DNA of 49,991 nt from a virus, in IMG/VR virus record IMGVR_UViG_3300021420_000049, positions 1-49,991 of that record. One strand, 5' to 3'. Numbering within the stretch: position 1 is the first letter of the stretch; each line of letters starts with the position of its first letter. Positions 7,373-44,900 of the stretch are shown in pieces. Under the pieces are notes generated by a model, which saw only the letters and a list, made by a program, of their open reading frames with translations, did not search any database and had not been told where the DNA came from. The position numbers and the translations under genes are program-made.

Positions 7373-7588
7373 TTAGACATATTTCTTTCCCTCTAGCGGC
7401 TTGCAATCTTTCGTAGGATGCAAATCGCATAGCTTCACTAATACATCTTGCGCTGACGCTTTAGCCTTGTTCCATCCGGCAAGATGTTCTAGCAATTTAT
7501 TGATCCGCCGTGCTACCTTGCGGCTTTCCCGAATACATATCTTTAGTTGTTTAACAGCCTGATGTTTCTTCGTTTGTGGTTTCTTCAT
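7373..7588 (-). CDS. Basic hypothetical protein, 71 aa
   Basis: Lysine/arginine-rich helical protein starting MKKPQTKKHQ. The ATG at 7588 has AGGAG 7 bases upstream, although this places the start 38 bp inside the end of the RNA ligase gene. A DLHPTKDCK segment near the end has no recognised meaning. Possibly nucleic-acid binding by charge alone. Confidence 0.55.
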   Translation of the reverse strand: MKKPQTKKHQAVKQLKICIRESRKVARRINKLLEHLAGWNKAKASAQDVLVKLCDLHPTKDCKPLEGKKYV

Positions 7589-8501
7589 TCGATACTCCTT
7601 CAAACTGTTTCTTTAACAACAGCTCTTTATACCATTCTGGTAAGCCACGTATTATTCCCCGCGAAATCTTGGGCCACGCAAATGCGAATAGCTTTTCCTT
7701 AATCTCTTCTTCGCATTCGCGCTTTATATCTGCTGGAACTTCTTTGATTAGTGCGGCAATATCCTGTGGTGAATCAGTTATTAATCCCTTCTCTGCAAGA
7801 TGTTGGATAGCCTTTTGCCAACGCGCCTGTGTATTGTATTCTGCTCCAAGATTGGCAATCATATCTCCCGTAGTAGGATTTTCGGTTTTCCACACATGAG
7901 CATGGGTCTCTTTAAAGGCTTCACTTACAAACTTGCCCATAAGCACTTCCTTATCTTTACCAAAAAGATTATAGAACACAGGTTTAATGACAATGCCCTC
8001 AATCTTTTGTCCACCGAGAACACTATCTTGCAGAAGAAATGACCGGACAAAAGCACCACCCGCCATAATCCCCTCCCATAACAAAGGAACTGTTTCCAGT
8101 CCTATACGATTAGCTTCCATCTGTTTAGCGGAATAGTTTAAAAATCGACATTCACTTATCTCAATATCAAATACAATAAGATGCTGCGCAGGTGCGCGAT
8201 TATAAGCAAGTACATTATGCTTGGGCTTTGCTAAGTATTCACAGCGATAAGTCCAGCCTGGGTGAAGATCATTTCTCAATCGCTTTACTGTTTCCACGGC
8301 TTTAGTGAACATTTTCTCTGGTGCCTCTACTACCATCTCGCAACCTTTCGAGCGCACTCGTAATTCGCCTTCTTCAGTTAAGCAAAATGAAAACTGTGAG
8401 CCATCTATCTTCTCTTCCACATATACGGGTCCCTTTAATAAGTCTGTAAGCGCGGCATGACCAAGATTATAAATGGATGAGTAACTATGCCAACTGGACA
8501 T
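7551..8501 (-). CDS. RNA ligase, Rnl2-like nucleotidyltransferase, 316 aa
   Basis: Seals nicks in RNA through a lysyl-AMP intermediate. Motif I is EKIDGSQ with nucleophile Lys31, followed by RSKG (50-53), ECEYL-like CEYLAKPKHN (88-96), FDIE (111-114, motif III), EGIVIK (168-173, motif IV) and MGKF...FKE (from 188, motif V). A C-terminal helical region from about 205 to 316 follows. In phages such ligases repair RNA, for example tRNA broken by host defence nucleases. No polynucleotide kinase/phosphatase partner is recognisable here. The start overlaps the nuclease gene upstream by 17 bp. Confidence 0.92.
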   Translation of the reverse strand: MSSWHSYSSIYNLGHAALTDLLKGPVYVEEKIDGSQFSFCLTEEGELRVRSKGCEMVVEAPEKMFTKAVETVKRLRNDLHPGWTYRCEYLAKPKHNVLAYNRAPAQHLIVFDIEISECRFLNYSAKQMEANRIGLETVPLLWEGIMAGGAFVRSFLLQDSVLGGQKIEGIVIKPVFYNLFGKDKEVLMGKFVSEAFKETHAHVWKTENPTTGDMIANLGAEYNTQARWQKAIQHLAEKGLITDSPQDIAALIKEVPADIKRECEEEIKEKLFAFAWPKISRGIIRGLPEWYKELLLKKQFEGVSNEETTNEETSGC

Positions 8502-25988: not shown

Positions 25989-26729
25989 ATGGCCGATCTG
26001 CCAGTTACATCGGATGAGGGAGCTACACCTGTAGTTATCAATGATCCTGTCACGACAGCAAATGTGGCAGGGGTCAACTCATTATCGGCTCTTAAAACGG
26101 ACAGAACCACCGTGGCTGGTGTTGCCGTGGCCACGGCGGCGGCTGGAATACAGAAAGTTGGATTAACAGACGGCTCAGGAACGGCTCTTACTTCAACAGC
26201 TGTTGGAGCAAAACAGGGATTGGATGTAAATTTGGTGGCTTCGCCAAGTCAATCTGCCGCCGCTTCTGGACAAACATATGCTACGGCTTTTGAGTTTAAT
26301 CTGCCGACAAATGGAACCGAATCCCCAGCGATGTATATAAAAAATCCAAACGCCTCTGGTAAAACATTAATTCTGAGATTTTTAGCCGCTACCTGTGAAG
26401 ATGCCACAAATGGCGCGGCTACAATTCGTATTTATGGTGATCCTACGACTTCGGTAAATGGTACTGCTCAAACAATCTCATCAACGTTTATCGGCGGTGG
26501 GGCCGCAGCTTCAGCAATGACGGCCTTTTCGGGACCAACAGCTTCCGCGAATGGAGGTATTCTTTTCGCTGTAGCTACTGGCTCAGGAAATGTAGTTCAA
26601 CCGGCAGTAATGCCAGTAAATTTTGATGGAATTATCAGATTAGCGGCTAATCATACATTACTCGTTACAGGGGAACCTTCTACAAATAATATGAACTATT
26701 CATTTACTCTTATGTGGCAGGAAGTATAA
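25989..26729 (+). CDS. Structural protein, appendage type, 246 aa
   Basis: The N-terminus (PVTSDEGATPVVIND...) resembles the linker of the previous protein. The C-terminal domain (GQTYATAFEFNLPTNGTESPAMYIKNPN, LLVTGEPSTNNMNYSFTLMWQEV) is a beta sandwich also seen in phage virion proteins. GGGGGAAGTAA precedes the start. Confidence 0.62.
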   Translation: MADLPVTSDEGATPVVINDPVTTANVAGVNSLSALKTDRTTVAGVAVATAAAGIQKVGLTDGSGTALTSTAVGAKQGLDVNLVASPSQSAAASGQTYATAFEFNLPTNGTESPAMYIKNPNASGKTLILRFLAATCEDATNGAATIRIYGDPTTSVNGTAQTISSTFIGGGAAASAMTAFSGPTASANGGILFAVATGSGNVVQPAVMPVNFDGIIRLAANHTLLVTGEPSTNNMNYSFTLMWQEV

Positions 26730-26730
26730 A

Positions 26731-27270
26731 ATGAGAATTGTAAATGTTTCGTATAGCCAGTGGAAAAGCCTTCTTGCATCTAATGATTTAGGTGCCCAAT
26801 ATTTAGAAAACCCCGATAGCTATGATCTATTCGCTATTGAATATCATATATCTTGGGAAACCAAAGTACTCAAAAATGGTGGTAGTGATCAAACAGACTT
26901 TGAGACAAATTATAAAGCGACGGCTAATCAACCCCTAGGATCAAGGCCGTCTGATACAGATTCTAATGCAACAACTTATACTACTACAGGAACAGGGGCA
27001 ACTTTATCCACTACACTTTCCTTTGACCAGTACGCATTGCAAGTTCAAGTTACTGGAACATCTACTCTTACGACCTGGAATGTTGTTCTTGAAGGCAGTT
27101 TAGATAACGTTAACTTTTCTACGATTCTTATATCTACACATGTAATTGGACAAGGAGTTGTATGGGGTAGTTCTCTTATTGCTCCAACGCTTCATATTAG
27201 GTCTCGTGTTATTGCCTTGGTTCTCGGCTCAGCAACAAATATTATTGTCACAATTCTAGGACAGACCTAA
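26731..27270 (+). CDS. Structural protein with beta-sandwich, 179 aa
   Basis: The second half (LQVQVTGTSTLTTWNVVLEGSLDNVNFSTI) resembles the module of the gene at 21145 (LYESVDGQNFVAI), so both probably share a fold. The N-terminal part is distinct. Role unknown. Confidence 0.6.
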   Translation: MRIVNVSYSQWKSLLASNDLGAQYLENPDSYDLFAIEYHISWETKVLKNGGSDQTDFETNYKATANQPLGSRPSDTDSNATTYTTTGTGATLSTTLSFDQYALQVQVTGTSTLTTWNVVLEGSLDNVNFSTILISTHVIGQGVVWGSSLIAPTLHIRSRVIALVLGSATNIIVTILGQT

Positions 27271-27271
27271 T

Positions 27272-28129
27272 ATGCCATTACAACAGAATATAGTCTCCTA
27301 TAATAATTCAAGCACAACTGTTTTAGCGGCCAACGCTACATTTACAGGCGTGTTCGAGAATGTTCTTCAATATCAGGAGATAAGTTGTTTTTGCGTTTCA
27401 GATGTTGGTGGTACACTCTGGCTGGATTTAAGTATTGATGGTGTAACATCCACCGCTTCATATTCTTTTGTCTCAACAGGCAGCATATTTTTCCGGGCTC
27501 CAAGCAATGAGCCTTACGCAAGAATACGATATATCAATGGCGGCACAATTCAAACACAATTCGCCTTGACAACTATCTATCGTCCCGTTGTCGGGGCCGT
27601 GGCTCAACTACCTATTACTTCATCATTTTTTGATGCGTCTTTGGCCAGTACTGAGAGGGCCATACTTTTTGGGAAGAATGCCAGCGGAACATATGTGCAA
27701 ATTCCAGCGGATACTGACACAGGGCTACGAGTTACTAGCTCTCTTGGAACGACTTTAAATAAAACTCAAGTTCAAAAAACAGGAACATTAGTAACTACCG
27801 CAACAACTGTAGATCAGGTAATACTAACCTATACCGTGACGGCTGGTAAAACTTTATATTTGACCTATTTAGAAATCATCGGAGCCCAAACAACTCCTAC
27901 TGGCGGTACAAATGTAGTTTTGGGTACTATAAGTCTAGAAACCCCTTCAGGAACGAAAGTGCTACAGAAAAGATGCGTCGGCGGCGGTGGTGTCTTGCCT
28001 GATGGTCTTATTTTCGCATTTGGTGAACCTCTTTTCATCGCCGCAGGTGTTGTAGTGCGAGCCGTTGTAACTCCTGCCGCTACATCTAGTTTCACTTGGA
28101 CCGCCAATTTTGGCGGATATGAGAAATAA
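27272..28129 (+). CDS. Structural protein, appendage type, 285 aa
   Basis: Two beta domains: N-terminal (VFENVLQYQEISCFCVSDVGGTLWLDLSIDG) and C-terminal (KTLYLTYLEIIGAQTTPTGG, VLPDGLIFAFGEPLFIAAG). The second is of the kind attached to virion tail decorations. Not named. Confidence 0.6.
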   Translation: MPLQQNIVSYNNSSTTVLAANATFTGVFENVLQYQEISCFCVSDVGGTLWLDLSIDGVTSTASYSFVSTGSIFFRAPSNEPYARIRYINGGTIQTQFALTTIYRPVVGAVAQLPITSSFFDASLASTERAILFGKNASGTYVQIPADTDTGLRVTSSLGTTLNKTQVQKTGTLVTTATTVDQVILTYTVTAGKTLYLTYLEIIGAQTTPTGGTNVVLGTISLETPSGTKVLQKRCVGGGGVLPDGLIFAFGEPLFIAAGVVVRAVVTPAATSSFTWTANFGGYEK

Positions 28130-28131
28130 TT

Positions 28132-28629
28132 ATGGCAAGTACCTATTACTCAGCCCCAGTTAATGTGCGTCAAACAGCTGCTACAGCGGCTAATGCTACT
28201 ATATGGGCAATGCGAAATTCAGCGACCTCTACTATAACCGTTTTTATAGAGAAGATAGAGCTTCTTTTGGCTTTTGATTCGGGAACACCTATTACGCGAA
28301 GTACACAGAAATATGATTTAATAAGATTCTCAACTGCTACACCAACTGGCGGAACAGCCATAACAGTTGCACAGATGTATAGCGGAGATACGGGAACACA
28401 AGTAACTGATGCAAGATTTTTAGATACTGGCCTTACAACCACTAGTATGGTCTTTAATGCTCCTTTTGCCACTATTGGTTGCCCTGCCACTGATGCGACG
28501 ACAACCAAATATCAAAGAGATACTATCGCATTAATGCTAGGAGTGGGAGAGGGCTTTTGTATTCGCTTGAATAATGCAGCAGTTGTCGGCCAGAGCATTA
28601 CAGGTGAGATAGTGTGGAGTGAACGCTAA
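28132..28629 (+). CDS. Structural protein, appendage type, 165 aa
   Basis: Beta-rich protein with VFIEKIELLLAFDSGTPITRSTQKY and LMLGVGEGFCIRLNNAAVVG. Similar composition and length to the C-terminal domain of neighbours. TAATG overlap with the following 44-aa gene. Confidence 0.6.
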   Translation: MASTYYSAPVNVRQTAATAANATIWAMRNSATSTITVFIEKIELLLAFDSGTPITRSTQKYDLIRFSTATPTGGTAITVAQMYSGDTGTQVTDARFLDTGLTTTSMVFNAPFATIGCPATDATTTKYQRDTIALMLGVGEGFCIRLNNAAVVGQSITGEIVWSER

Positions 28630-28763
28630 TGACTGTTGCAACCGTTACTGTAGCTGATCCTGCAAATCCTGTAGAACTCCAAGCATGGCTTGATGCTAAT
28701 CCAGCGGCCAGTATTTTTACTATATTGGGAAGCAGCGCAACCTTTTATATTTTATATAGTTAA
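28629..28763 (+). CDS. Small hypothetical protein, 44 aa
   Basis: A 44-codon frame starting MTVATVTVADPANPVELQAW. It overlaps the previous stop as TAATG and ends exactly before the next in-frame ATG. Short, hydrophobic C-terminus. Function unknown. Confidence 0.5.
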   Translation: MTVATVTVADPANPVELQAWLDANPAASIFTILGSSATFYILYS

Positions 28764-28790
28764 ATGAAAAACTCAAAGGAGACGGGGAAA

Positions 28791-29051
28791 ATGAAAACAC
28801 AATCAGTCGAAAAAGATGGAAATAAGAAAGTGGAGAATGTATCTCTTGCTTTTCGCGTAAAAGCACATGGAGATAATCTCTTCTCCGCCGAAATGTTACT
28901 TCTTCAGGACGATATGGTTATTGAATCCCGCCACGGAATTGCCACCACGCTAGGACATGCTATTGGCGCGGCGGATGATCTTATGGATGGATGGGCATTC
29001 AATGAGATAGAACAGAAGGCAGAGGATTATTTCCATAACGTGTTTCTATGA
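28791..29051 (+). CDS. Hypothetical protein, 86 aa
   Basis: Starts MKTQSVEKDGNKKVENVSLAFRVKAHGD after AGGAGACGGGGAAA. Contains EMLLLQDDMVIES and an acidic helical end. An in-frame ATG at 28764 lacks a ribosome site. Not recognised. Confidence 0.6.
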   Translation: MKTQSVEKDGNKKVENVSLAFRVKAHGDNLFSAEMLLLQDDMVIESRHGIATTLGHAIGAADDLMDGWAFNEIEQKAEDYFHNVFL

Positions 29052-29284
29052 GAACAATATCACAACTAGCGATGGAAAAGGCCGCACAAGCATGGTGTTC
29101 GCCCGGAACATCTGATAGGACTATGGATATTACGCTTTGTTGTGAATTTGCTAAGATTCTAGACAAAGAATTGTGGGAACCACATTTGGGATGCGCTACG
29201 ACTAAACAGCTTCTTGATGAGATTAGCGCACGATCTAATCTTAGCTATTCAACGATAGGCATTCATAGACTAACGGGGGAATAA
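29048..29284 (+). CDS. Hypothetical protein, 78 aa
   Basis: Helical; QLAMEKAAQAWCSPGTSDRTMDITLCCEFAKILDKELWEPHLG. It overlaps the previous gene as ATGA. No family known. Confidence 0.6.
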   Translation: MRTISQLAMEKAAQAWCSPGTSDRTMDITLCCEFAKILDKELWEPHLGCATTKQLLDEISARSNLSYSTIGIHRLTGE

Positions 29285-29551
29285 ATGAAAGAGAATGTAC
29301 CGTTGTACATATTAACATTATTACTGTTAGCGGCTACAGTGTATCTAAAGTCGCCAATGATAGCTGTATCTATCGTGGCTTTATGGGGCGTGAAAGCCTC
29401 AGAAGCTATATTCACACGCAAGAACAGAGACGAAGATATTACTGAGATGCTTGCTACTATGGCGTCTCATAAAGCAAAGATGGACGCGCTAACACGCGAT
29501 ATAACAAACGTGAGTGAACGCGCTCGCGTAATTCTTGGGGAGAACTTCTAA
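29285..29551 (+). CDS. Membrane-associated hypothetical protein, 88 aa
   Basis: Two hydrophobic segments near the N-terminus (YILTLLLLAATVYL and IAVSIVALWGV), then a coiled coil (EMLATMASHKAKMDALTRDI). It lies just before the scaffold and overlaps it as TAATG. Possibly a virion or injection-related protein; unknown. Confidence 0.55.
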   Translation: MKENVPLYILTLLLLAATVYLKSPMIAVSIVALWGVKASEAIFTRKNRDEDITEMLATMASHKAKMDALTRDITNVSERARVILGENF

Positions 29552-30531
29552 TGGCCGAAAATAATGCCGCACCAGCTGCACCCGTTGCACCAGCAGTATC
29601 TAGCGACGCACCCGCGTCTAAAGCTGATGCCCAAGCTCTTGCTCCGAAGGCTAGTGCCTCACCAGCCACTAAGGTTGATGATAATGGCGTTGCCGCCGAA
29701 CAGCCCAAAAAGATATTCAAATTGAATGTCAATGGGAAAGAAGTAGAGTACGATGCTTCTAACGAAGATAAACTGAAGGCCGATCTTCAAAAGGTATTTG
29801 GTATTGAAGAGAAAGCCCGTACTTCTGCTCAGAAAGTTGATATGGCTGAGAAACTTCTCGGAATGCTTCAAACTGATCCTCTTGGTTTTGAGAAACAATG
29901 TAAACTTCAAGGAATTGATGCTACCAAGCTTGCCACTGAGATTCTTTACAACCAACTTAGGCTTCAGAATATGACTCCTGAGCAACGCGAATTAGAGGAT
30001 TACAAACAACGCGAAGCAGAAGCTAAAGCTCTTAAAGAACAACAGGAAGCTGAAGCGAAAACCGCCGAAGGTAACCGTAAAACACAAGAATGGGCTCAGA
30101 AGTTCGAGAAAGAGTGCGAAACCGCCCTTAATGCTAATGCTATTCCAAAAACACGGCTTAGCCTTGCTCTTATTGCCCAGTATATTGATGCCGGTTTAGC
30201 TGATAAGAAAGAATATACAGTAGAACAGGTGCTACCCTATGTAGCGCGTGATTTAAAAGAAATTCATCGGTCCACAATGGAAACATTGGATGGCGATGAT
30301 TTACTTGCTTATGTCGGTGAAAATTTGTCAAATAAAATTGCCAAAGCGCGTGTAGATCGTTATAAACGCACTACAGCAAATCCTGTTCCTGATAAAAAGA
30401 CTGTAAATGAGAATCCGCAGAATAAAGTGGATATTTCCAAACTAAAGGGTAAAGCTTATTGGAAAGCTCTTAGACAGCAAAAATCAGAAGCGGGAATTGG
30501 ATTGCATCCAGGCGCACCGGGCAATTTCTAA
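29551..30531 (+). CDS. Scaffolding-like head protein, 326 aa
   Basis: Ala/Pro-rich start (about 1-50), then a long charged helical middle (KADLQKVFGIEEKARTSAQKVDMAEKLLGML; EDYKQREAEAKALKEQQEAEAKTAEGN) and a conserved C-terminus (KLKGKAYWKALRQQKSE). Highly charged helices and the place before the capsid protein fit a scaffold that shapes the prohead and leaves before DNA entry. Confidence 0.78.
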   Translation: MAENNAAPAAPVAPAVSSDAPASKADAQALAPKASASPATKVDDNGVAAEQPKKIFKLNVNGKEVEYDASNEDKLKADLQKVFGIEEKARTSAQKVDMAEKLLGMLQTDPLGFEKQCKLQGIDATKLATEILYNQLRLQNMTPEQRELEDYKQREAEAKALKEQQEAEAKTAEGNRKTQEWAQKFEKECETALNANAIPKTRLSLALIAQYIDAGLADKKEYTVEQVLPYVARDLKEIHRSTMETLDGDDLLAYVGENLSNKIAKARVDRYKRTTANPVPDKKTVNENPQNKVDISKLKGKAYWKALRQQKSEAGIGLHPGAPGNF

Positions 30532-30536
30532 AGATT

Positions 30537-30611
30537 CGCAGAGTGGAGCATTGGTAGCTCGACGGGCTCATAATCCGTAGGTAGGCAGTTCGATTCTGCC
30601 CTCTGCAACCA
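30537..30611 (+). tRNA. tRNA-Met(CAU), initiator type (fMet)
   Basis: 75-nt cloverleaf with encoded CCA. Acceptor CGCAGAG/CTCTGCA leaves position 1-72 as C:A, D arm GAGC...GCTC (A11:U24), anticodon arm ACGGG-CTCATAA-TCCGT, 5-base variable loop AGGTA, T arm GGCAG-TTCGATT-CTGCC, discriminator A and CCA. C1:A72 mismatch, A11:U24 and two G-C plus a G.U pair at the base of the anticodon stem are the hallmarks of bacterial initiator tRNA; an elongator tRNA would have a paired 1-72. It lies in the gap between scaffold and the 78-aa gene and is the only tRNA recognised. Confidence 0.92.
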
Positions 30612-30645
30612 TTTCGGGGACATTTAAAATCAAGGAGAAGAAAAA

Positions 30646-30882
30646 ATGTCCACAGCCACCCCTAAAGCCGCAAATGTTGTGTATGATGGTCCTACCCAGC
30701 AAATCCAGTCTGTTGATCCTAATAACGGTTGGGTTGCTATCAACAACGTGTTGAATAGCTATACTACGACTCAGAAAAACGCTCTCTTTCCTCTACAAGC
30801 GACGATTATTCTCGATACCACTCTGAATAAACTATGCTTTTTTGGAACGGATGCGGCATGGCACACTGTTACATCTGCCTAA
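30646..30882 (+). CDS. Small hypothetical protein before the capsid gene, 78 aa
   Basis: Contains NNGWVAINNVLNSYTTTQKNALFPLQATIILDTTLNKLCFFGTDAAWHTVT, a beta-rich segment like small domains of phage decoration or fibre proteins. Well-placed AGGAG. Then 167 bases without a credible gene precede the capsid gene. Confidence 0.6.
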   Translation: MSTATPKAANVVYDGPTQQIQSVDPNNGWVAINNVLNSYTTTQKNALFPLQATIILDTTLNKLCFFGTDAAWHTVTSA

Positions 30883-31049
30883 AATAGTTTTATCTGCATC
30901 CCGAATTCACGCAAGGGACCAGATTAAGTCAAGTGTGAAGAATGACGTTGATGCGGTTATAACGAAACGTAGAAAGAGGACGCTAACCCCTATCCAAATC
31001 TACTGGACGAATCTCACGCACTCCGACATTAGATTCAAAGGATAATAAA

Positions 31050-32336
31050 ATGAGTGACGTTGATCTATCAGCTTTAAATGGTGACTTTAAACAAGCCTAC
31101 CAAGACAAGATTAAAGACTTAGTTCCCAACTATGCCTACGTGTTGAAGAATACAACCGTGGAAAAAGGGATGAAGCAACTAGGAGACAAGTTCAATGCTC
31201 CTGTTAAAGTGCAATCCGGCCAGGGTTACACGTACAATACCGATGGTTCAGCGTTCGCGCTTAATGCGGCTATTGGGCTTCAGATGGAAAACGCTTTGGT
31301 TCCGGCTTTCAGCCTGATCCGACGTGACAATATCAGCTATACGGCTATCAGCCGCTCAGCTGGTAAGAATAGCTTCGGCAAAGCCGTTGACATTACGCTC
31401 AACGACATGACCGAAGGGGCGGGTTTCCGCCTCGAAGCGACGTATCTCCACGGAACTCGTGGAATTGGTGTTACTTCCTCAACGACCGCTGTTTCTGCCA
31501 CGCAAACGACTGTTCAGCTTACCGCTGCTTCTTGGGCGACGGGCATTTGGGCCTCTTCAATTGGAGCCCAGGTTCAGTTCTACGTTGTGGCCGGTGGTGC
31601 GCTTGTTTCTTCGGGCGCAGATTCAGTGTTCCAAGTGGTTGGTATGAACTTTACTGCGTTCACGATCACGGTTAATGGTACGACCACGGGCAGTACTGCC
31701 CTTGTCGCCGCCACGGCCACTCCTTTGAATGTTGCCTTCAATGGCGCGTTCGGAGCGACGTTTGCGCTTCCTATCGAAGGCGTTGGTTTAATCACCATTG
31801 CTTCCAATATGGGAACGTTGTTCAGCATCAATTCTGTTACCTGGCCCCTTTGGCAGGGAAATACGTATGACGCGGGGCTCGCGCCTCTGTCCTTCGGAAA
31901 ACTACAGAAAGCTATCACGCTCCCCGGCGACAAGGGACTGATGGGCGAAGAGTGCACGGTTCTCGTGCCTTTGACCTCCTTCAGCGACCTCTTGACCGAA
32001 CAGGCTGCGGCTCGCCGATACGGCGATGTGAAAGGGAAAAAGTTTGACAACGGTTGTGATGCGTTGGAATTCTATTCTCCTTCCGGCACGATGACCATTG
32101 TTCCGCACCCGTTGATGAAACGTGGCGAAGCTTTGCTTTATCCGACGGATAGCATTACTCGTATTGGTTCCAGCGAATTGACATTCCAGCTTCCGGGTAC
32201 CTCGACGGACAGCTATCTCCAAGTTCCTTTGGGTGATTTCGCGGGTTATCAGGTTAGAATTTGGGCGGATAATACTATCTTTGCCGAAACTCCTAGCCAT
32301 ATGTGTCTCATTCAGAACATCGTTCCTCGGTCGTAA
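31050..32336 (+). CDS. Major capsid protein, 428 aa
   Basis: The main shell protein. Position after the scaffold, length, and segments such as AYQDKIKDLVPNYAYVLKNT, YNTDGSAFALNAAI, SLIRRDNISYTAISRSAGKNSFGKAVDITLND and a C-terminal DFAGYQVRIWADNTIFAETPS fit an HK97-fold phage capsid protein. A central beta insertion (about 145-250, many Thr/Ala) looks like a surface domain. Its codons look more GC-rich than neighbours, as for a highly expressed gene. Followed by a hairpin cluster. Confidence 0.85.
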   Translation: MSDVDLSALNGDFKQAYQDKIKDLVPNYAYVLKNTTVEKGMKQLGDKFNAPVKVQSGQGYTYNTDGSAFALNAAIGLQMENALVPAFSLIRRDNISYTAISRSAGKNSFGKAVDITLNDMTEGAGFRLEATYLHGTRGIGVTSSTTAVSATQTTVQLTAASWATGIWASSIGAQVQFYVVAGGALVSSGADSVFQVVGMNFTAFTITVNGTTTGSTALVAATATPLNVAFNGAFGATFALPIEGVGLITIASNMGTLFSINSVTWPLWQGNTYDAGLAPLSFGKLQKAITLPGDKGLMGEECTVLVPLTSFSDLLTEQAAARRYGDVKGKKFDNGCDALEFYSPSGTMTIVPHPLMKRGEALLYPTDSITRIGSSELTFQLPGTSTDSYLQVPLGDFAGYQVRIWADNTIFAETPSHMCLIQNIVPRS

Positions 32337-32338
32337 TT

Positions 32339-32384
32339 CCCACCGTCTCAATCTGGTGGGGTTGCCTCCCCGACGACCCCACCA
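32339..32384 (+). terminator. Alternative-hairpin element after the capsid gene
   Basis: Three segments: CCCACC (32339-32344), TGGTGGGGT (32354-32362) and ACCCCACCA (32376-32384). Segment 2 can pair with 1 (6 bp) or with 3 (9 bp), but not both. The strong 2-3 hairpin has no T tract, so it is not a standard terminator. It may mark the capsid mRNA end, a processing site or an attenuator. Confidence 0.6.
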
Positions 32385-32400
32385 ATGTTGGGATAGTAGT

Positions 32401-32429
32401 AGTTTATAGTTGATGGTTTACTATAAACT
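32401..32429 (+). other. Perfect 10-bp inverted repeat between capsid and decoration genes
   Basis: AGTTTATAGT (32401-32410) and ACTATAAACT (32420-32429) with a 9-base loop. It lies 16 bases after the first hairpin and 62 before the next gene. AT-rich, with no T run. Could stabilise the capsid mRNA 3' end or bind a protein. Confidence 0.7.
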
Positions 32430-32490
32430 CATTCGCGTAGCACGTCCTAAGTAAGGCGGTACGCAAACATCTGAAATAAAGGAGTTTTAA

Positions 32491-33024
32491 ATGAGCATCA
32501 CGAACATCGTAGTTACCACGGTTGATACCGCCGCTATGGTATTGGATCAGTTAAATCCGCAAGGTGGTTCTAGTTCTTCAGATTCGTTGCAGAATTTGTC
32601 ACGTTATTTCCAAGGTTTAGGAGATGGAGCATTTTATTACACCACGGTTGCTGAAGCTGTTGGAGCTATTCAGGCTGTTGGAACGCTTACAGTGTCATCC
32701 ACCGGTCCCACGGCTGGTCAAGTCGGAACGGTTGTGAATCAAAACTTGACGGCTGAAGCTAGCGGTGCAAATCCTACCCTCGGTCAGTTTAATGTTAATG
32801 CCTCTCCTACTGTTGTGGCTGCTGGGATGGCTCTTGCTATTAATAGTACGCCCTCCATGAATGTTATGGTTACGGCTACATCTGCACTTGGCGTTGTTAC
32901 AATTACAGCGAAACACGCTGGTTTTACGGGCAATGGCTTGGAATTATCTGCCGGAAATTTGTCGAACGTGGTTGCATCAGGTTTTTCTGGTGGAACTGCT
33001 GGCACAGCCGTTACTTTATCATAA
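32491..33024 (+). CDS. Virion protein, decoration or stabilisation type, 177 aa
   Basis: Ala/Thr/Gly-rich beta protein; AGMALAINSTPSMNVMVTATSALGVVTITAKHAGFTGNG resembles a fold common in phage head and tail proteins. Position just after the capsid gene suggests a decoration or head-completion protein. AGGAG well placed. Confidence 0.62.
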   Translation: MSITNIVVTTVDTAAMVLDQLNPQGGSSSSDSLQNLSRYFQGLGDGAFYYTTVAEAVGAIQAVGTLTVSSTGPTAGQVGTVVNQNLTAEASGANPTLGQFNVNASPTVVAAGMALAINSTPSMNVMVTATSALGVVTITAKHAGFTGNGLELSAGNLSNVVASGFSGGTAGTAVTLS

Positions 33025-33042
33025 TAAAGGAGATTTAATACT

Positions 33043-33567
33043 ATGAATGACGCATTTGATGAAAAAAGGGGAATGGTAAAAAAGCTCCTTGATATGCTAA
33101 AGGCTCACGCTTCTAGCGAAGTGTCTAGCGGCCTTAGTAAACCAGAAGGTGAAGATGATATGCACGGCCTTCAAGTTGAAAAAGTAGAAGTTCTTCCAGG
33201 GCATGAAATGGATAAATCTACTCCTGAGCATGAAGTCGATACCAAGCTAATTCCAGAAGGTCAGCACACCGCGAATCTTGGTTTTAATCAAGGCGGAATG
33301 GCTTATAACAAGGGTGGAGTTGTTGAAAAGGTCAATGCGACTGATCCAACACCTAAAATCCATTCAGGACCTATTCCTTACGAATCGGCGGATGGTCAGC
33401 CTGATAAAGAAGGGGCAGTTCACAAAGAAGTGGGCGAAGGATTGCAGAAACGCGATTCTCTCACCACGACCGAACATGAAGAACCGCTTGGGACAGAATA
33501 TCCTGAAGCAGAGAGTGAACCATCTTCTATGTTTGCTAGTTTCTTGGGCAGAAAGAAAAAGAAATAG
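33043..33567 (+). CDS. Acidic/polar hypothetical protein, 174 aa
   Basis: Helical N-terminus (KRGMVKKLLDMLKAH), then a low-complexity polar body with repeated Gly-Gly (NQGGMAYNKGGVV), and a basic end (SFLGRKKKK). Possibly a virion-associated or ejection protein; the Gly-Gly motif style recurs in the ejection genes downstream. Confidence 0.55.
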   Translation: MNDAFDEKRGMVKKLLDMLKAHASSEVSSGLSKPEGEDDMHGLQVEKVEVLPGHEMDKSTPEHEVDTKLIPEGQHTANLGFNQGGMAYNKGGVVEKVNATDPTPKIHSGPIPYESADGQPDKEGAVHKEVGEGLQKRDSLTTTEHEEPLGTEYPEAESEPSSMFASFLGRKKKK

Positions 33568-33642
33568 ATTAGTAGTTAAGTAAATGCGGCTGGGGGTAGA
33601 CAACCGCAATAAAAACCCCTCAATTTTTATAGGAGAAATACC

Positions 33643-36156
33643 TTGAGCGAAATAATCACATTCCCTCTGCCTAGCGGCCTGAATTATACAATTCCCGATA
33701 TTGGGGATGTAAATTGGGGTCAAAATGTAACGAATTTTTTGGTAGCTATACCACACGGAGTATTCCCTACCGCCGGGCTATTTCCTTTAACCGGCGATGT
33801 TACTTTAACGGGCGGCTTTGGTCTCTTTGCTCCTTATTTTAGATCCACCACAGTCAATCCTGCTACGGCAGGTCAGATCAGTCTTGCCAAAACCGATTCA
33901 ATAGACTGGCGTAATAATGCCAATAGTGCAAATCTTCCGTTAGCTATTAATGGAAGCGATCAACTTACTTTTAATGGAATTGTCATTGCATCAGGAACCG
34001 GGAATGTACTGTCAATTATAGGAACGCCTAATCAAGTTATAGCTTCTAGTCCTACGGGGAATGTCACTCTTTCCCTTCCCCAAGATATTGCTACCGCTTC
34101 TTCCCCAACCTTTTTAAGTTTAACCCTCACTAATGCTTTGACTGTTGGGGCTCCTCCCAATGCAACAGCGGGTACAATCCGTCTCGCTAATGCAGATGAT
34201 ATTGCATGGCGAAATGCGGCCAATACGGGAAATATATTTTTAGAGGTTAATAGCTCAAATCAATTACAGTATAACAGTCATCCTGTATTTGATTCAAATG
34301 GAGTATTAATTAATCTAGGAGTTATCAATGTAAAAGATGCCCCTTATAGCGCAACTGGTAACGGTACTACAGATGACACAGTTGCCATTCAAAGTGCTAT
34401 TAATGCCGCTGTAGGTGGACAAACAGTATTCTTCCCTTCTGGTAATTATCATATTACCGCCGCTCTTAAACTCCCCGCAGGTCCTATTCGACTTTTAGGT
34501 TACAATCCTCTCTCTGCATCTTCAGGAACAACGATCACGCAAACGGCTACAGATTCTATATTCAATCTATTTATCGGAAGTGCTACGGATGCTACGATTC
34601 AAAATATAGAAATTAGTGGCTTTCATTTAGTTGGTGGTAATGACCAGATTTATGTGCAGAACGGTGGTGTTTGGGTTACAATTACAGACGTATTTTTTGA
34701 TAATCCTAGCACAGCTGGTATTTTTATGAAAGGTTTTAATCAGCAATGGTTTGTGAAGAACTGTAACTTTGCGGGAGGACAATACGGAATTTTTCTTAAT
34801 TCCGCAGGATTACAAGCAGATAACTCATCAACTGGAACACCTCCGCTATGGGATAAATGTAATTATGATTCAGTAAACTTTTCGAGTGCGACAATAAATG
34901 GTGTTCATATTGAGCTTCCAACAGGAGTCGGTGGGAGTGCAACTTTCAAAGATGTAGTGGTTAACTTTTGTGCCCAGGATGGTATTGTTCTTGCTGGTGG
35001 AATTGGAAATGTTCTATTCGACACATTGAATACAGAGTCTAATGGTTTTACGGGGTCTGCTCCAATACCCCCAATGCTCGCAAATACTATGGCGGGTAAT
35101 GCCACGGTATCTGTATCTGCTGGTGGAACCTTGGTAAATGGTCAGACTGTTACAATTCAAGGAGCAGGTGTAAATGGGGTAGATTGGTATCCCGTTATTC
35201 AGAGTGGTGGCGGCACCAATGTTCTTGTTATGACCACTACAGCCCCCACTTCTGTAAATGCCGCAGAACTTGTCACGTATTTATATTCTGATGTTAAATT
35301 AATGGGAACTGGCGGCGGTAGTTTATATGCCATAGCATTTAATAATGCTCTTGTGGGCAGTAGTTCCCCAGTTGCCGCTACCCGCTATGGTATAGATCTT
35401 ACTGGATCAAATGATTCAATTGTTACAAATGTTCGTTGCGTTAGACCCATGTATGATCCTAATCAAATTCTTCAAACCTCTGGCACTTATGGGGATATGC
35501 TTGTTCGTAGACCGAATAATTTCCTTACTGAAAGGTTCTATACTTCTTATTCTGGCGGGGTTGGAGATTTAACAAATCCTAGAACTCAACTTACAAGTCC
35601 TGCTGGAAAAGATATTGTTATGGGACTTTTAGACAGCACGGCAAATACTTCAGGAACATTCGGCAACTTTGAGATCAGAAAATCGGATTCTAGCCGAACA
35701 AAGTTATTTGCGGTGAACGGGACAACCGGAGTAGTTACGGGTACAATTACCGGGGCTATAGTTCAAGCTGTTCAGCATACTGATAGCGTTGGTTATACGA
35801 CTACTTCAAGCACATTCCAAACAGGAAGTAGTTTATCAATTACTCCTTCTTCAGCTACATCTAAAATTCGTGTAACGGTTACTGGTTGCGCCTTTAGCGC
35901 AGGTTCAACTACTGAATATTTATCTATTTTTAGAGGGGCTACAAATCTTGCGGGATCTGGAAATCATTTTTCTAGGCTCCAATTATCAAATAGTGCAATA
36001 TCTTATTCAATGTCCTATTATGATAGTCCGGCAACAACGTCTAGCATAACCTATTCTATTAATTTTGCAAATAATGATAATACCACAGCCGTTTTTTCAA
36101 GCGGAGCATCGGCACCAGATGTGGCATATATTTTGCTAGAAGAAATCGCAGGATAA
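33643..36156 (+). CDS. Tailspike with pectate-lyase-like beta-helix, 837 aa
   Basis: The N-terminal head-binding part is fibre-like. From about residue 229 the KDAPYSATGNGTTDDTVAIQSAINAA and TVFFPSGNYHITAAL segment is the signature of the pectate lyase superfamily domain used by polysaccharide-degrading tailspikes, followed by right-handed beta-helix rungs to about 500. The last 127 residues (ITPSSATSKI, DSPATTS, ending LEEIAG) match the end of the fibre at 21537-23606. It likely cleaves or binds surface glycans. TTG start with AGGAG upstream. Confidence 0.85.
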   Translation: MSEIITFPLPSGLNYTIPDIGDVNWGQNVTNFLVAIPHGVFPTAGLFPLTGDVTLTGGFGLFAPYFRSTTVNPATAGQISLAKTDSIDWRNNANSANLPLAINGSDQLTFNGIVIASGTGNVLSIIGTPNQVIASSPTGNVTLSLPQDIATASSPTFLSLTLTNALTVGAPPNATAGTIRLANADDIAWRNAANTGNIFLEVNSSNQLQYNSHPVFDSNGVLINLGVINVKDAPYSATGNGTTDDTVAIQSAINAAVGGQTVFFPSGNYHITAALKLPAGPIRLLGYNPLSASSGTTITQTATDSIFNLFIGSATDATIQNIEISGFHLVGGNDQIYVQNGGVWVTITDVFFDNPSTAGIFMKGFNQQWFVKNCNFAGGQYGIFLNSAGLQADNSSTGTPPLWDKCNYDSVNFSSATINGVHIELPTGVGGSATFKDVVVNFCAQDGIVLAGGIGNVLFDTLNTESNGFTGSAPIPPMLANTMAGNATVSVSAGGTLVNGQTVTIQGAGVNGVDWYPVIQSGGGTNVLVMTTTAPTSVNAAELVTYLYSDVKLMGTGGGSLYAIAFNNALVGSSSPVAATRYGIDLTGSNDSIVTNVRCVRPMYDPNQILQTSGTYGDMLVRRPNNFLTERFYTSYSGGVGDLTNPRTQLTSPAGKDIVMGLLDSTANTSGTFGNFEIRKSDSSRTKLFAVNGTTGVVTGTITGAIVQAVQHTDSVGYTTTSSTFQTGSSLSITPSSATSKIRVTVTGCAFSAGSTTEYLSIFRGATNLAGSGNHFSRLQLSNSAISYSMSYYDSPATTSSITYSINFANNDNTTAVFSSGASAPDVAYILLEEIAG

Positions 36157-36169
36157 GGGGTTAAATTAA

Positions 36170-37114
36170 ATGAGCTTAGATTATACTACTACTACACTCC
36201 TTACTACACTTAGGCTTCTTCCTTTGATGCCCTCTGTTCAAGCCCTATTCTCAGATACAGATCTATTGACTATTCTAACATTCGAGATGACTTCAAAAAT
36301 CTATCCGATGATTGATAATCAATCTGAGGAGTACTTTGTTTTGCGTAATGATATCCCATATAACGCCAATCAAACTGTATTTCCTCTTCCGCCCCGCGCT
36401 CTCGGAGGCAAATTACGCTCTGTATCTTTTGTGGATTCCAATAATAATGAAATTCGCATACCTCGACTACGGCCAGAAGATACTATGTCAAATGTAAATT
36501 CTACGGGACTTGCAATTAATCCGGCCTTGTGGGGTTTCTATGTGCAGAATAATGATTTAATTCTGTTCTTAGGTTCTATCGCTGGAAATACTCCCGCATA
36601 TAAGTTTCTTAGAATGCGATATATTCGGCAACCAAATAGTCTTGTTAAAACAACCGATTGTGCCCAGGTTACCTCAATTAGCGGCAATAATGTAACCGTA
36701 TTGAATGTACCAAGTACTTTTTCAACTTCGGTCGACTATGATATGATATCCAACGTACCTAATTTTAATGCCTTGCAAGATGATTCAGTCTGTACAGCAA
36801 TATCATTTCTAACAATGACATTTACTTCTCTTCCCGTCGATCAATTTGGAAATGTAACATTACAAGTTGGCGATTGGATCTGTCTATCGGGACAAGCTCC
36901 CGTTGCTCAAATTCCCTATTCTCCTGGCTATGATTTACTTTTGCAGCTATCTGCCGCTAAGTGTCTAGAGATTCATGGAGACGTACAAGGTTTTAATACA
37001 GCTATGAGTCAAGCCGCCGATATGAAAAACTATTTGATTAGTATTCTAACCCCCCGCGTAGATGGTAATGTTATAAGACTCACTACACCTAATTCCTTAT
37101 ACGCCTGGGACTAA
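36170..37114 (+). CDS. Head-tail adaptor / tail protein, 314 aa
   Basis: Follows the tailspike and precedes the nozzle. Contains PMIDNQSEEYFVLRNDIPYNANQTVFPLPPRALG, FYVQNNDLILFLG, LRMRYIRQPNSLVK and a helical C-terminus. The order and length suit the adaptor that attaches the tail to the portal in podoviruses. Family not certain. Confidence 0.65.
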   Translation: MSLDYTTTTLLTTLRLLPLMPSVQALFSDTDLLTILTFEMTSKIYPMIDNQSEEYFVLRNDIPYNANQTVFPLPPRALGGKLRSVSFVDSNNNEIRIPRLRPEDTMSNVNSTGLAINPALWGFYVQNNDLILFLGSIAGNTPAYKFLRMRYIRQPNSLVKTTDCAQVTSISGNNVTVLNVPSTFSTSVDYDMISNVPNFNALQDDSVCTAISFLTMTFTSLPVDQFGNVTLQVGDWICLSGQAPVAQIPYSPGYDLLLQLSAAKCLEIHGDVQGFNTAMSQAADMKNYLISILTPRVDGNVIRLTTPNSLYAWD

Positions 37115-37116
37115 CA

Positions 37117-39756
37117 ATGACCCTCGAAACTTCCCCGCAGGAAATACAATTAACATGCAAAGGGCTTTTCACAATGCCCAATGCATTATCGCAAGTTCCA
37201 GATGGTTCATGTCTTATTGCTCAAAATGTTGTGGTGGATTATGATGGCCTTCTCTCTGGCCGACGTGGTATCCGGCAGTTTGGTACGAGCCTACAAACCA
37301 TTACTGGTTCTGTGCATACAAATATATTTCAAGAATTTTTCTATGCGGGATCAAAACTCATCTGGTTTGGAGATGTAACTGTATCAGATACAAATCCGGC
37401 CCGATTTTATTTTGGCTATGATAGTGATAATCTTGGAACGTGGATAGAAACCACGCACCCATTCTCCCCCCCGGCCTATGCTTTTACTGATACATATAGA
37501 TCAGTACAAAGCAATGGCAATTTCTATATGACCTCTACGACGGGTCTATTAAAAACTGATGCACCTTCTCATCCACTTATACAGGCCGGAGGATTACCGG
37601 GACTTGATGGCACCGCCACCCTCACTGGTGCATCAGGATTCATGGCTACAAACACCGAAGTAGCCTATAGAATGACCTGGACTACTACGGATGCGAATCA
37701 TAATGATGTACAGGGCACTCCTTCTACCCGCGTTATTGTGTCGAATAGTACTGGTGGAAGTCGTAATGTGATTCTTGTGTTTACGATTCCACACGGCACC
37801 AAAACCACAGATCAATATACAATATATCGTTCGTTGATGAGCGCAAGCAGTACAACGCAACCATCCGATGAATTGCAACTCACTATACAAGGTTTTCCAT
37901 CCTCGACGGATTTAACGAATGGATTTTTTACCGTTACTGATTCTACACCCGAATCATTACTTGGTGCGGCTCTTTACACCAACTCTGGCCAAGAGGGAAT
38001 TGCCCAGGCTAATAATATTCCCCCCCTTGCAAATGATGTGTGCTTTTTTCAGGGATATGTAATTTATGGGGCGGCCACTACACAAAATAAATTTCTTCTT
38101 AGCCTTCTCTCCACGAATGGCGTAGGGGCTTTAATGATAGGTGATACATTTACGGTAACAACCGGCCTATCGAGTTTTACATTGACAGCAGAAGCGGCAG
38201 AGAATATTCCAGCAGCCCAATTTAAAGTGTTTAGTGGCGGTGACCCAGCAAGCGATATTCTTAACACAAAACAATCTCTTATCCGTGTATTAAATCGTCA
38301 ATCACAGACTCAAGTATATGCTTATGATAGCACCGATGTTAATAGCGCATCATCGCTTCCTGGTGACTTTGTATTACAGGAACAGGGAATAAGCCGTATC
38401 CAATTTGGAGTTAGTTCTTCCAATTCAACAGCTTGGTTTCCAAAGTTAACGGTCGTCCCAAGCGATAATCTCTCTTTGGCGGGGGGTTTCATAGGCTCAG
38501 GTTATTGTTCCAAATTTGAACAGCCGGAAGCCGTACCTATTGCAAATACAATTTCAGTAGGCAATAAATATTTTGAGTGGCTTCGTTGTTTACCGCTAAG
38601 AAATTCAGTCATAGTTCTAAAAGCCGATGGGTGCTTTCAATTAACAGGTACAGCTTTCCCATTTACTGTTACTACACTCGATCTTGGCACTATTCTTACG
38701 GCTCCTGAATCTCCTACAGTCATGTCCAACCAAGTATTCGCCTTTACGAATCAAGGAGTAGTAGCTATAACGGAAACTGGCCCAGGAATTATTAGTAGGC
38801 CAATAGAAAATGAGCTACAAGAGATTAGTTCCTATCTCCACCCTAACTTCCCTGAAATTACATTTGGTACATCCTATGAAACTGATAGAAAATGGATCAT
38901 GTCTACTGTTTCTTCAGTAGATAATTTTCAACTGGCAACTATTCAGTATGTCTATGACATTATTACACAGACATGGACTACCTATCAATATCCCATAGCT
39001 CTTTGGGATTTACATGAATCTCCAACCGAGCATAGATTATATGCCGCTTCAGCCGATGCAACATATCCTTTTATGTTTCAGGAGCGAAAAGCCTTTGCTA
39101 ATTCAGATTTTGCTGATATAGAAATTCCTACGACTATTACTGCATTTTCAGGCACGATGCTAACAGTCACAAGTACGGCAGGAGCGCATATAGGATGGTC
39201 CATTGCTCAGCTAAGTGCTGAAGGCGATAATGAGCCTAGTATTGTCTCGGTAATCTCTGTTATTACAAATATCGTTGACTCGACGCATATTGTGGTGAAA
39301 GATATAAAGAACTGGAACTTAGCCGCGTCTTTTACGGCCTATGAACAACCTATTAATATAGATGTGCTATTCACTCCTATAATCGGTGTACGCGAACTTA
39401 ATGGGGCTAGGGGTAATCCTGGTACTGTGAAATTCTTCCAAGAAATTCAGCTATTCTTTCAGAATATCGCCTTTGATTCGATTACATTTAACTTTTCTTC
39501 GGATTTTGTAGCTTCGACTACACCTGTTATATTTACTCCCTTTATTCAAGATACTGGGTGGGGTACATTTCCTTGGGGAAGCGGTCCATGGGGCTCAGGT
39601 GCGGCACCGCTCCAAAGTTTACGAAATTATATTCCTCTAGGAGCGCGTAGGGCCCATTGGCTGAATGTGGAATTAATTCTATCACAAGCTATGGTGGCGT
39701 TTAGCTTCGCTGGTCTAGTATTAACCTATAGACCGACGACTACACGCTCTAAATAA
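37117..39756 (+). CDS. Tail nozzle-like protein (beta-propeller), 879 aa
   Basis: Large beta-rich protein; PNALSQVPDGSCLIAQNVVVDYDGLLSGRRGIRQFG at the N-terminus is typical of podovirus tail-hub/nozzle proteins. WFGDVTVSD, FYMTSTTGLLKTDAPSH, YQYPIALWDLHESPTEHRLYAASADATYPFMFQER and a C-terminal jelly-roll-like end follow. It probably forms the hexameric tube through which DNA exits. Confidence 0.75.
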   Translation: MTLETSPQEIQLTCKGLFTMPNALSQVPDGSCLIAQNVVVDYDGLLSGRRGIRQFGTSLQTITGSVHTNIFQEFFYAGSKLIWFGDVTVSDTNPARFYFGYDSDNLGTWIETTHPFSPPAYAFTDTYRSVQSNGNFYMTSTTGLLKTDAPSHPLIQAGGLPGLDGTATLTGASGFMATNTEVAYRMTWTTTDANHNDVQGTPSTRVIVSNSTGGSRNVILVFTIPHGTKTTDQYTIYRSLMSASSTTQPSDELQLTIQGFPSSTDLTNGFFTVTDSTPESLLGAALYTNSGQEGIAQANNIPPLANDVCFFQGYVIYGAATTQNKFLLSLLSTNGVGALMIGDTFTVTTGLSSFTLTAEAAENIPAAQFKVFSGGDPASDILNTKQSLIRVLNRQSQTQVYAYDSTDVNSASSLPGDFVLQEQGISRIQFGVSSSNSTAWFPKLTVVPSDNLSLAGGFIGSGYCSKFEQPEAVPIANTISVGNKYFEWLRCLPLRNSVIVLKADGCFQLTGTAFPFTVTTLDLGTILTAPESPTVMSNQVFAFTNQGVVAITETGPGIISRPIENELQEISSYLHPNFPEITFGTSYETDRKWIMSTVSSVDNFQLATIQYVYDIITQTWTTYQYPIALWDLHESPTEHRLYAASADATYPFMFQERKAFANSDFADIEIPTTITAFSGTMLTVTSTAGAHIGWSIAQLSAEGDNEPSIVSVISVITNIVDSTHIVVKDIKNWNLAASFTAYEQPINIDVLFTPIIGVRELNGARGNPGTVKFFQEIQLFFQNIAFDSITFNFSSDFVASTTPVIFTPFIQDTGWGTFPWGSGPWGSGAAPLQSLRNYIPLGARRAHWLNVELILSQAMVAFSFAGLVLTYRPTTTRSK

Positions 39757-39757
39757 C

Positions 39758-40183
39758 ATGCAATTACCACTGTACCGAAGAATTACGGAAGAGGACCTTG
39801 GCGATGCACCAAAAGGTGCATGGAAAGGCAAATTGCTCTATGGGCTTAATCTATTCATGCAACAAATCTATACAGGATTGTCGAATAATCTTACTCCCGA
39901 ACAGAATGATATTGTCCAAACCAAAACATTTAGTATAGTCGGTTCTTCAACCGTTAGTAAAAATATCTATAGTTTTGCTACAAATTATGTCTATAATCCG
40001 TTGGGTATGGATCTTCTTTCAATCCATCCCACAGATGGAAGCACCCAAATTTTCAGTACTGCTCCTTTTGTCTCATGGAGCTATTTAAACGGCACTTTTA
40101 ATGTGCTAGGAATAACTGGCCTTACAGATTCGGTTCCGTATACAATTACGATACGAGTTTGGTGGCCAGCTGTTATAAACTAA
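39758..40183 (+). CDS. Small tail/virion protein, 141 aa
   Basis: Starts MQLPLYRRITEEDLGDAPKGAW; contains NLFMQQIYTGLSNNLTPEQNDIV then a beta-rich half ending TIRVWWPAVIN. It lies one base after the nozzle gene and likely completes the tail. Family unknown. Confidence 0.6.
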   Translation: MQLPLYRRITEEDLGDAPKGAWKGKLLYGLNLFMQQIYTGLSNNLTPEQNDIVQTKTFSIVGSSTVSKNIYSFATNYVYNPLGMDLLSIHPTDGSTQIFSTAPFVSWSYLNGTFNVLGITGLTDSVPYTITIRVWWPAVIN

Positions 40184-40193
40184 GGAAACTGCT

Positions 40194-41588
40194 ATGGCCT
40201 ATGTCTCAAATATGACAGCTGATGAGGATCAAAAAACTCCTTCCCAAGGAGCCGTACCCCCCGCTGGGGGAGGGGCCGTACAATTGGCTCCCTCTAGCGG
40301 AATAGGAAATGTAGGTGCTGCCGCCCCATCCGCGCAACCCGGACAACCAGGAGCAGGAGGAAGCTTTGCCACGCTAGATAAATATCTTACAGCTAATCAA
40401 GGCCAAGCCCAGCCTCTTGCTGATAAATTATCCCAAGGGATTGGTCAAGAGTATAACACTTTATCGGGGCAAAATGCTTCCACACTAGGCGGAATAAATC
40501 AACAAGTAACAAATGCTCCCGGTTATACCGCTAGTAATCCTGCCACCCTGGCGGCAGAAGCGGCCAACCCCGTTTCCTTTGCAAATGACCAAGGAAATGT
40601 AAAGCAATTTCAGGGCCTTCTTACAAATACTTATAGTGGTCCAGCATCAGCCCAAGCTACGCCAGAATATACTAATCAGCAAAGTGCTATAAATAATGCC
40701 ATAGCACAAGGGCAACAACAAACTACTACAGAAGCCGGTAGACAACAACTTTTATCGCAAAACGAAGCGGCTCCCTCGGCTTCTGTAACGGGTCTTAATA
40801 GTGCGATTCTTTCCCAAAGTCCAACGGCTCTTAATCAGATAGAAAGTGCCTATAAACCGTTCTCGTCGCTCCTTACTGATTTATATTCAGGCGCACAGGA
40901 TGTAAATGCCAATATTGGAAAAGAGCAAGCAGATGCACAACAATCTTCAGCGGCGGCAAATAAACAAATAGCAGATCAGATAGGTGCATTAAATACCGGG
41001 ACTAATGCCGATCTTGCGAAAGCAACAGCCGCAAGAGATGCTTATAATGCCGCCGTAGCGCAGAATCAAAATGTCTGGAACCCTGTTAATACCCAAGTTA
41101 ATAGTCTAGATGAACTTCTTGCAGGGATTACACAAGGCCAAACTCCTGCCACTGGGGGGGCTACCACTATTGCTAATCCTCTTGGGCAATATGTTAATGC
41201 TCCTTTTAGTGCTAATGCACCAACATTACAAACAGTTGCTACACCCCAAGAATATGCTCAAGCCAATGCATTCCAGAATCTATTGGCCGGACTTAATACG
41301 GGAATTGCGGCTCCTAATTTAACCCCCGCAACAGCCGCACAAGCTGGAACTTATCAAGCCCCCACCGCTCCCACAATCACTGATCCAAAAGCGCAAGCAA
41401 AAGCTTTATATGATGCTATGAATAAAACAATAAGCGCACCGGGACCAAATAATACACAAGTGTCAAATCCTTGGTTTAATAGTTATCAAGGCGGTCAACA
41501 GTTTCAAAATGTATTTAATCCGCAGTATCAGAATTTAACTAATCTACTAAATAAAATTTACGGCAGTAATATAGCCGCTAGCGAGTAA
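40194..41588 (+). CDS. Internal (ejection) virion protein, Ala/Gln-rich, 464 aa
   Basis: Long Ala/Gln/Asn/Gly-rich chain with a helical middle, e.g. EQADAQQSSAAANKQIADQIGALN. Low hydrophobicity, few Cys. Composition and location before the two other ejection-type genes suit proteins packaged in the head and ejected to cross the envelope. No enzyme motif found. Confidence 0.65.
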   Translation: MAYVSNMTADEDQKTPSQGAVPPAGGGAVQLAPSSGIGNVGAAAPSAQPGQPGAGGSFATLDKYLTANQGQAQPLADKLSQGIGQEYNTLSGQNASTLGGINQQVTNAPGYTASNPATLAAEAANPVSFANDQGNVKQFQGLLTNTYSGPASAQATPEYTNQQSAINNAIAQGQQQTTTEAGRQQLLSQNEAAPSASVTGLNSAILSQSPTALNQIESAYKPFSSLLTDLYSGAQDVNANIGKEQADAQQSSAAANKQIADQIGALNTGTNADLAKATAARDAYNAAVAQNQNVWNPVNTQVNSLDELLAGITQGQTPATGGATTIANPLGQYVNAPFSANAPTLQTVATPQEYAQANAFQNLLAGLNTGIAAPNLTPATAAQAGTYQAPTAPTITDPKAQAKALYDAMNKTISAPGPNNTQVSNPWFNSYQGGQQFQNVFNPQYQNLTNLLNKIYGSNIAASE

Positions 41589-41599
41589 GGAGATTTAAA

Positions 41600-42877: not shown

Positions 42878-42878
42878 C

Positions 42879-44879: not shown

Positions 44880-44900
44880 ACTCACTAATAAGGATATAAA

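Follow-up and report, generated by a model that had tools for sequence, protein, structure and literature searches.

Does the only tRNA gene of an uncultured phage encode an initiator rather than an elongator tRNA, and what could a phage gain from it? These questions are raised by a locus on an IMG/VR phage contig of metagenomic origin, whose full 49,991 bp are referred to below as the window. Its plus strand encodes terminase, portal and tail-type proteins, its minus strand replication proteins.

The tRNA gene and its class

In the whole window ARAGORN detected a single tRNA, a Met(CAT) tRNA with the anticodon CAU at positions 30537-30611 on the plus strand. The same gene gave the only Rfam match at the gathering threshold (RF00005, 30537-30608, 57 bits, E 9e-10), and both searches thus agreed with the initial annotation that the window contains exactly one tRNA. 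The predicted RNA fold is a cloverleaf in which C1 and A72 are unpaired. By direct reading, the tRNA possesses C1xA72, G2:C71, C3:G70, A11:U24, the anticodon loop CUCAUAA, A73 and an encoded CCA. The C1:A72 mismatch and the A11:U24 pair, both named beforehand as initiator hallmarks, are therefore present, and position 1 is a C mispaired with A72 and not a G or A pairing with it. The G-rich anticodon stem, a further hallmark claimed, was found in part. Its 5' strand is indeed GGG, but the third pair is G31.U39, so that the stem (G29:C41/G30:C40/G31.U39) reads GC/GC/GU instead of the textbook GC/GC/GC.

The sequence was compared with the CAU tRNAs of E. coli and other bacteria. Its identity to six bacterial initiators amounted to 77-84%, versus 58-69% to five elongator Met/Ile2-type CAU tRNAs, and the best values of up to 84% were obtained with initiators of the Bacillales type. 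The E. coli tRNAs metU, metT and ileX contain G1:C72 and C11:G24, unlike the window tRNA. With bacterial tRNAfMet (e.g., E. coli metZWV) it shares C1xA72, G2:C71, C3:G70, A11:U24, the CUCAUAA loop, G29:C41, G30:C40 and CCA, and with the Sporosarcina initiator (L079:677-751) additionally a short D-loop and G31.U39. Cellular initiators combining a short D-loop with U39 also occur in Kurthia, Psychrobacillus, Pedobacter, a Cytophagales MAG and others. On the other hand, the window sequence differs by 16-23% from the six bacterial initiators, and most of its phage relatives have lost the G-C pair at 29:41 as well as U8:A14. Since the residues of the window copy, the identity scores and the conservation across relatives described below agree, the assignment to the initiator and not the elongator class is well supported.

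The capsid-proximal slot in related phages

The tRNA lies between two structural genes of the same strand. A 326-aa ORF (29551..30531, +), which is conserved in relatives and scaffold-like by position only, ends 5 nt before the tRNA; PHROGs and Pfam revealed no family match for it. Downstream, a 78-aa ORF (30646..30882, +), apparent from the ORF list and the slot sequences, and a structured leader of about 160 nt separate the tRNA from the putative major capsid gene, which fits the initial placement of the tRNA just before the capsid cassette. Small ORFs similar to the 78-aa ORF reside in the slots of L002, L004, L007, L010 and L013, and there was no PHROGs or Pfam match for the 78-aa ORF itself. 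The putative capsid protein (31050..32336, +, 428 aa) was assigned by its position, by a weak match to NF033394 (capsid_maj_Podo, E 1.6e-6, below the cut-off of that family) and by its 27% identity, extending over about half of the 428 aa, to a protein of the Silvanigrella phage CP017838, in whose capsid region ARAGORN found no tRNA. A PDB sequence search gave no useful match for the capsid protein, and its AlphaFold model (pLDDT 37) was too poor for a structure search.

A search of IMG/VR with the capsid yielded 15 related contigs, all of metagenomic origin like the window; three further capsid scans, including an alignment-based one and one based on L011/L012, added none. Megablast of window positions 26000-46000 against known phages gave no matches. 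The capsid was also absent from the 84,980 cellular genomes searched and thus provides no clue to the host or to lysogeny. The slot before the capsid gene was read by eye in 14 contigs including the window, L012 (insert in the capsid gene) and L016 (beginning inside the capsid gene) being left out. A tRNA occupies the slot in nine of them (window, L003, L004, L005, L008, L010, L013, L014 and L015), while the slots of L002, L006, L007, L009 and L011 are devoid of it; the alignment of L002 to the window skips just the tRNA. Presence and absence require at least three changes on the capsid tree. The tRNA is therefore dispensable for these phages. That nine of 14 contigs keep such a tRNA in the slot, eight of the nine with C.A at 1:72, argues that the window tRNA is not a chance match, the nine copies sharing ancestry and not being independent observations. 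The insert of L012 (upstream of 6001; L066:4001-5826) apparently interrupts the capsid gene after its first codons, encodes an HNH-like protein and is probably an intron.

The nine tRNA copies were aligned by hand on cloverleaf positions. Pair counts omit an extra C that three copies (L003, L004 and L015) have on the 3' side of the acceptor stem, and a duplicated C in the L005 row is located in the variable loop, leaving the stem counts unaffected. Although pairwise identities are as low as 51-81%, 176 of 180 stem pairs other than 1:72 are Watson-Crick or G-U pairs, many of them with compensatory changes. All copies share the loop CUCAUAA, G2:C71 and G30:C40, and all except L005, which has U-A, carry C.A at 1:72. 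C3:G70 occurs in six copies and U.G in the other three; 11:24 is purine:pyrimidine (R11:Y24) in 7/9. CCA is encoded by every copy but that of L013. Other parts have changed. Only the window and L008 retain G-C at 29:41, the anticodon stem being AU/GC/variable in the remaining seven, so that G30:C40 is the sole invariant pair of the three. Inspection of the alignment further disclosed seven copies in which U8:A14 is missing and U14 and A21 are able to extend the D-stem. The data establish the fold and class of the tRNA and the conservation of initiator identity across the relatives: given the preserved stem pairs and C.A at 1:72, the fold and the 1:72 initiator mark look selected, whereas most of the sequence drifts. 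All nine genes are preceded by TT at -2 and -1, and a pair between U-1 and A73, bridging the C.A mismatch, would be possible.

In six relatives the slot harbors a second tRNA-like cloverleaf (L003:5760-5835, L005:5759-5833, L014:957-1035, L008:277-342, L013:5352-5420 and L015:5692-5759), which lacks CCA and whose anticodon arm is not conserved. These elements belong to two sequence types, with the T-loop TAGTGGTTAAT / TATTGGTTAAT or TGCAAGT. Since tRNA-like elements of the slot do without CCA or a conserved anticodon, the CUCAUAA loop and position 1:72 of the Met-type tRNAs are not kept merely for the sake of a cloverleaf shape. L004 contains at about 5753-5825 (L037:2753-2825) a tRNA-Ala(TGC)-like element adjoining the Met-type tRNA, which reaches 45 bits with the Rfam tRNA model, lacks CCA and has an odd T-loop.

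The leader of the capsid gene (30889..31049, +) ends at the Shine-Dalgarno site and is common to 13 aligned contigs (window, L002-L010 and L013-L015), directly before the capsid start; inspection by eye indicated a diverged version in L011. The leader comprises helices H1/H2, a pseudoknot (H3), H4, H5 and the conserved hairpin GGACGYUAAYNCCUAUCC at 30978-30995. To assess the helices, strand pairing within each contig was compared with that after swapping strands between contigs in 20000 permutations, using strand regions defined by rules chosen after the sequences had been inspected. Own-strand pairing of H3 and H5 exceeded 20000/20000 permutations, while the value observed for H4 was reached by 100/20000. 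With RNAalifold, run on a MAFFT alignment, no pairs other than those of H1, H2 and GGA/UCC were recovered, and the fold energy of the single sequence is ordinary (z 0.05); H3 to H5 therefore rest on the permutation test. Rfam gave no relevant match for the leader, which we regard as a candidate cis-regulatory RNA and a candidate new RNA motif. L021 and L028 matched the leader pattern alone, without the rest of the leader or this capsid context, and were dismissed as chance matches.

Proposed function and competing explanations

In bacterial initiators, formylation is aided by C1xA72, G2:C71, C3:G70 and A11:U24, and P-site selection is governed by the three GC pairs of the anticodon stem (PMC7949028). 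The 3GC mutant of E. coli (UA/CG/AU) fails to initiate, yet it is charged, formylated and bound by IF2 (PMC10486304). With an AU/GC/variable anticodon stem and the canonical U8:A14 gone, it is doubtful whether seven of the nine phage copies are efficient initiators. However, anticodon-stem variants become able to initiate once the host initiator is depleted (PMC7949028), and this is why use of the phage tRNA at times of scarce host tRNAfMet would be fitting. We think it likely, though by no means assured, that the window gene makes a genuine trans-acting initiator-type tRNA, which would serve to start phage proteins whenever host tRNAfMet is in short supply.

From the sequence features, we infer how such a tRNA may be expressed, charged, formylated and used in initiation, and why it may have been retained. 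It would be transcribed together with the late structural genes; RNase P and 3' nucleases of the host would trim its two ends, host MetRS would charge it with Met, and host Fmt would formylate it thanks to C1xA72/G2:C71/C3:G70/A11:U24. IF2 would bring it to the P site, where it could start phage proteins. The reason for its retention may be a loss of host tRNAfMet during infection, e.g., to a VapC-like nuclease, the phage copies differing at the cut site. VapC of Shigella/Salmonella cleaves tRNAfMet between A38 and C39 (PMC4105405). None of the nine copies has C at residue 39, which is U, G or A instead; this is suggestive of VapC escape but no proof of it. U39 alone is no sign of nuclease escape, because it also occurs in some cellular initiators. 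Replacement of tRNAfMet cleaved by host nucleases appears plausible, and the evidence would also be consistent with the boosting or bypassing of translation initiation suggested at the outset.

A possible RNA-repair partner of the phage tRNA is an ATP-dependent RNA ligase (PF09414) encoded at 7551..8501 on the minus strand (Pfam E 3e-15, KIDG and EGIVIKP motifs). Relatives of this ligase are restricted to two tRNA-bearing phages of the group (G002 and G007, 72% and 70% identity). It is absent from two other tRNA-bearing relatives of about 50 kb; with 3/5 tRNA-bearing versus 0/2 tRNA-less genomes of this size, the numbers are too small to infer an association. RtcB was absent from the phage group.

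A more far-reaching version, which we rate as distinctly unlikely, would be that the lineage possesses private initiators that have kept the formylation identity, dispensed with the GC/GC/GC stem, become proof against tRNAfMet-cutting nucleases and been paired with the pseudoknotted leader, securing capsid translation under a host initiation shut-off.

Among the competing explanations, a role in cis deserves most attention, even if we consider it unlikely. The tRNA would then be a processing or stability element, cleaved by RNase P and 3' nucleases so that the capsid mRNA acquires its 5' end or has it protected, and use of the tRNA in translation would be secondary or absent. The location between two structural genes of the same strand, before the capsid gene, agrees with this, as do the cloverleaf elements without CCA or conserved anticodon, the structured leader and the TT kept at -2 and -1 in 9/9 copies. 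However, the stems have changed in sequence, whereas the CUCAUAA loop and C.A at 1:72 belong to the best conserved parts. RNase P is not known to require either of these two, and a purely cis-acting element leaves the invariant anticodon loop and the mismatch unexplained. The lack of the tRNA in five relatives also speaks against it.

The RNA might alternatively be a decoy soaking up a tRNAfMet-targeting toxin or modifying enzyme and not be meant for translation. An anticodon loop that remains invariant while much else drifts could be understood in this way, and three phages of the group encode an RNA ligase. But a VapC decoy should retain the target stem and C39, neither of which is retained, and CCA and the formylation determinants would be superfluous, making a decoy very unlikely. 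We give little credence to a recently captured host tRNA without selected role, or an integration relic, despite the up to 84% identity of the window copy to Bacillales-type initiators and the patchy presence among relatives: the compensatory changes between deeply diverged copies indicate long selection within the group, none of the proteins scanned was recognised as an integrase, and the capsid was not found in the 84,980 cellular genomes searched. For an elongator Met or Ile2(CAU) tRNA serving codon compensation speak the CAU anticodon, which is common to both classes, and the elongator-like L005 (U1:A72, U11:A24). This reading nevertheless has hardly any probability left, because for the window copy 1:72, 11:24 and overall identity all favour the initiator and refute elongator Met/Ile2 identity at the sequence level.

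Should the phage tRNAs indeed work as initiators, they would reveal, in the manner of natural experiments, which initiator features cannot be spared: in the nine diverged copies, the weak 1:72 end and G30:C40 have persisted and the other two GC pairs have not. It would then also become possible to test directly whether phages carry initiators as a means of surviving toxins that cleave tRNAfMet.

Comparison with tRNAs of other phages

Phage tRNAs have been proposed to replace host tRNAs cut by anticodon nucleases, in a study which reports that phages mostly avoid encoding tRNA-fMet where it is the target of VapC-LT2 (PMC10264068). The tRNAs of our group resemble those replacement tRNAs in two respects: at the nuclease cut site they deviate from the usual host tRNA, and some members of the group possess an RNA ligase. 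In contrast to the avoidance of tRNA-fMet reported there, the initiator is here the very tRNA carried.

Our literature search yielded few papers in which phage initiator tRNAs are named. By blastn, the window tRNA matched six records of known phages, among them Aeromonas phage AP1 (MT713136) and a 735-kb phage (LR756501), whose tRNAs both combine C1xA72 with CAU. Initiator-type tRNAs in phages are therefore not new, and such a gene is less exceptional for a phage than the initial annotation had implied. AP1 and LR756501 are jumbo/huge phages, whereas here the tRNA is the sole one of a phage of about 50 kb and lies in a recurrent slot before the capsid gene. What seems to be new is a lineage with such a capsid-proximal slot and structurally deviant, initiator-marked tRNAs. 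That the fast-changing tRNAs in the same slot of the relatives keep the initiator mark suggests that these phages may bring their own protein-starting tRNA. The tRNA of LR756501 (L093:1501-1569) is of the initiator type and, like the copies described here, has an eroded anticodon stem (A29:U41, G30:C40, G31.U39).
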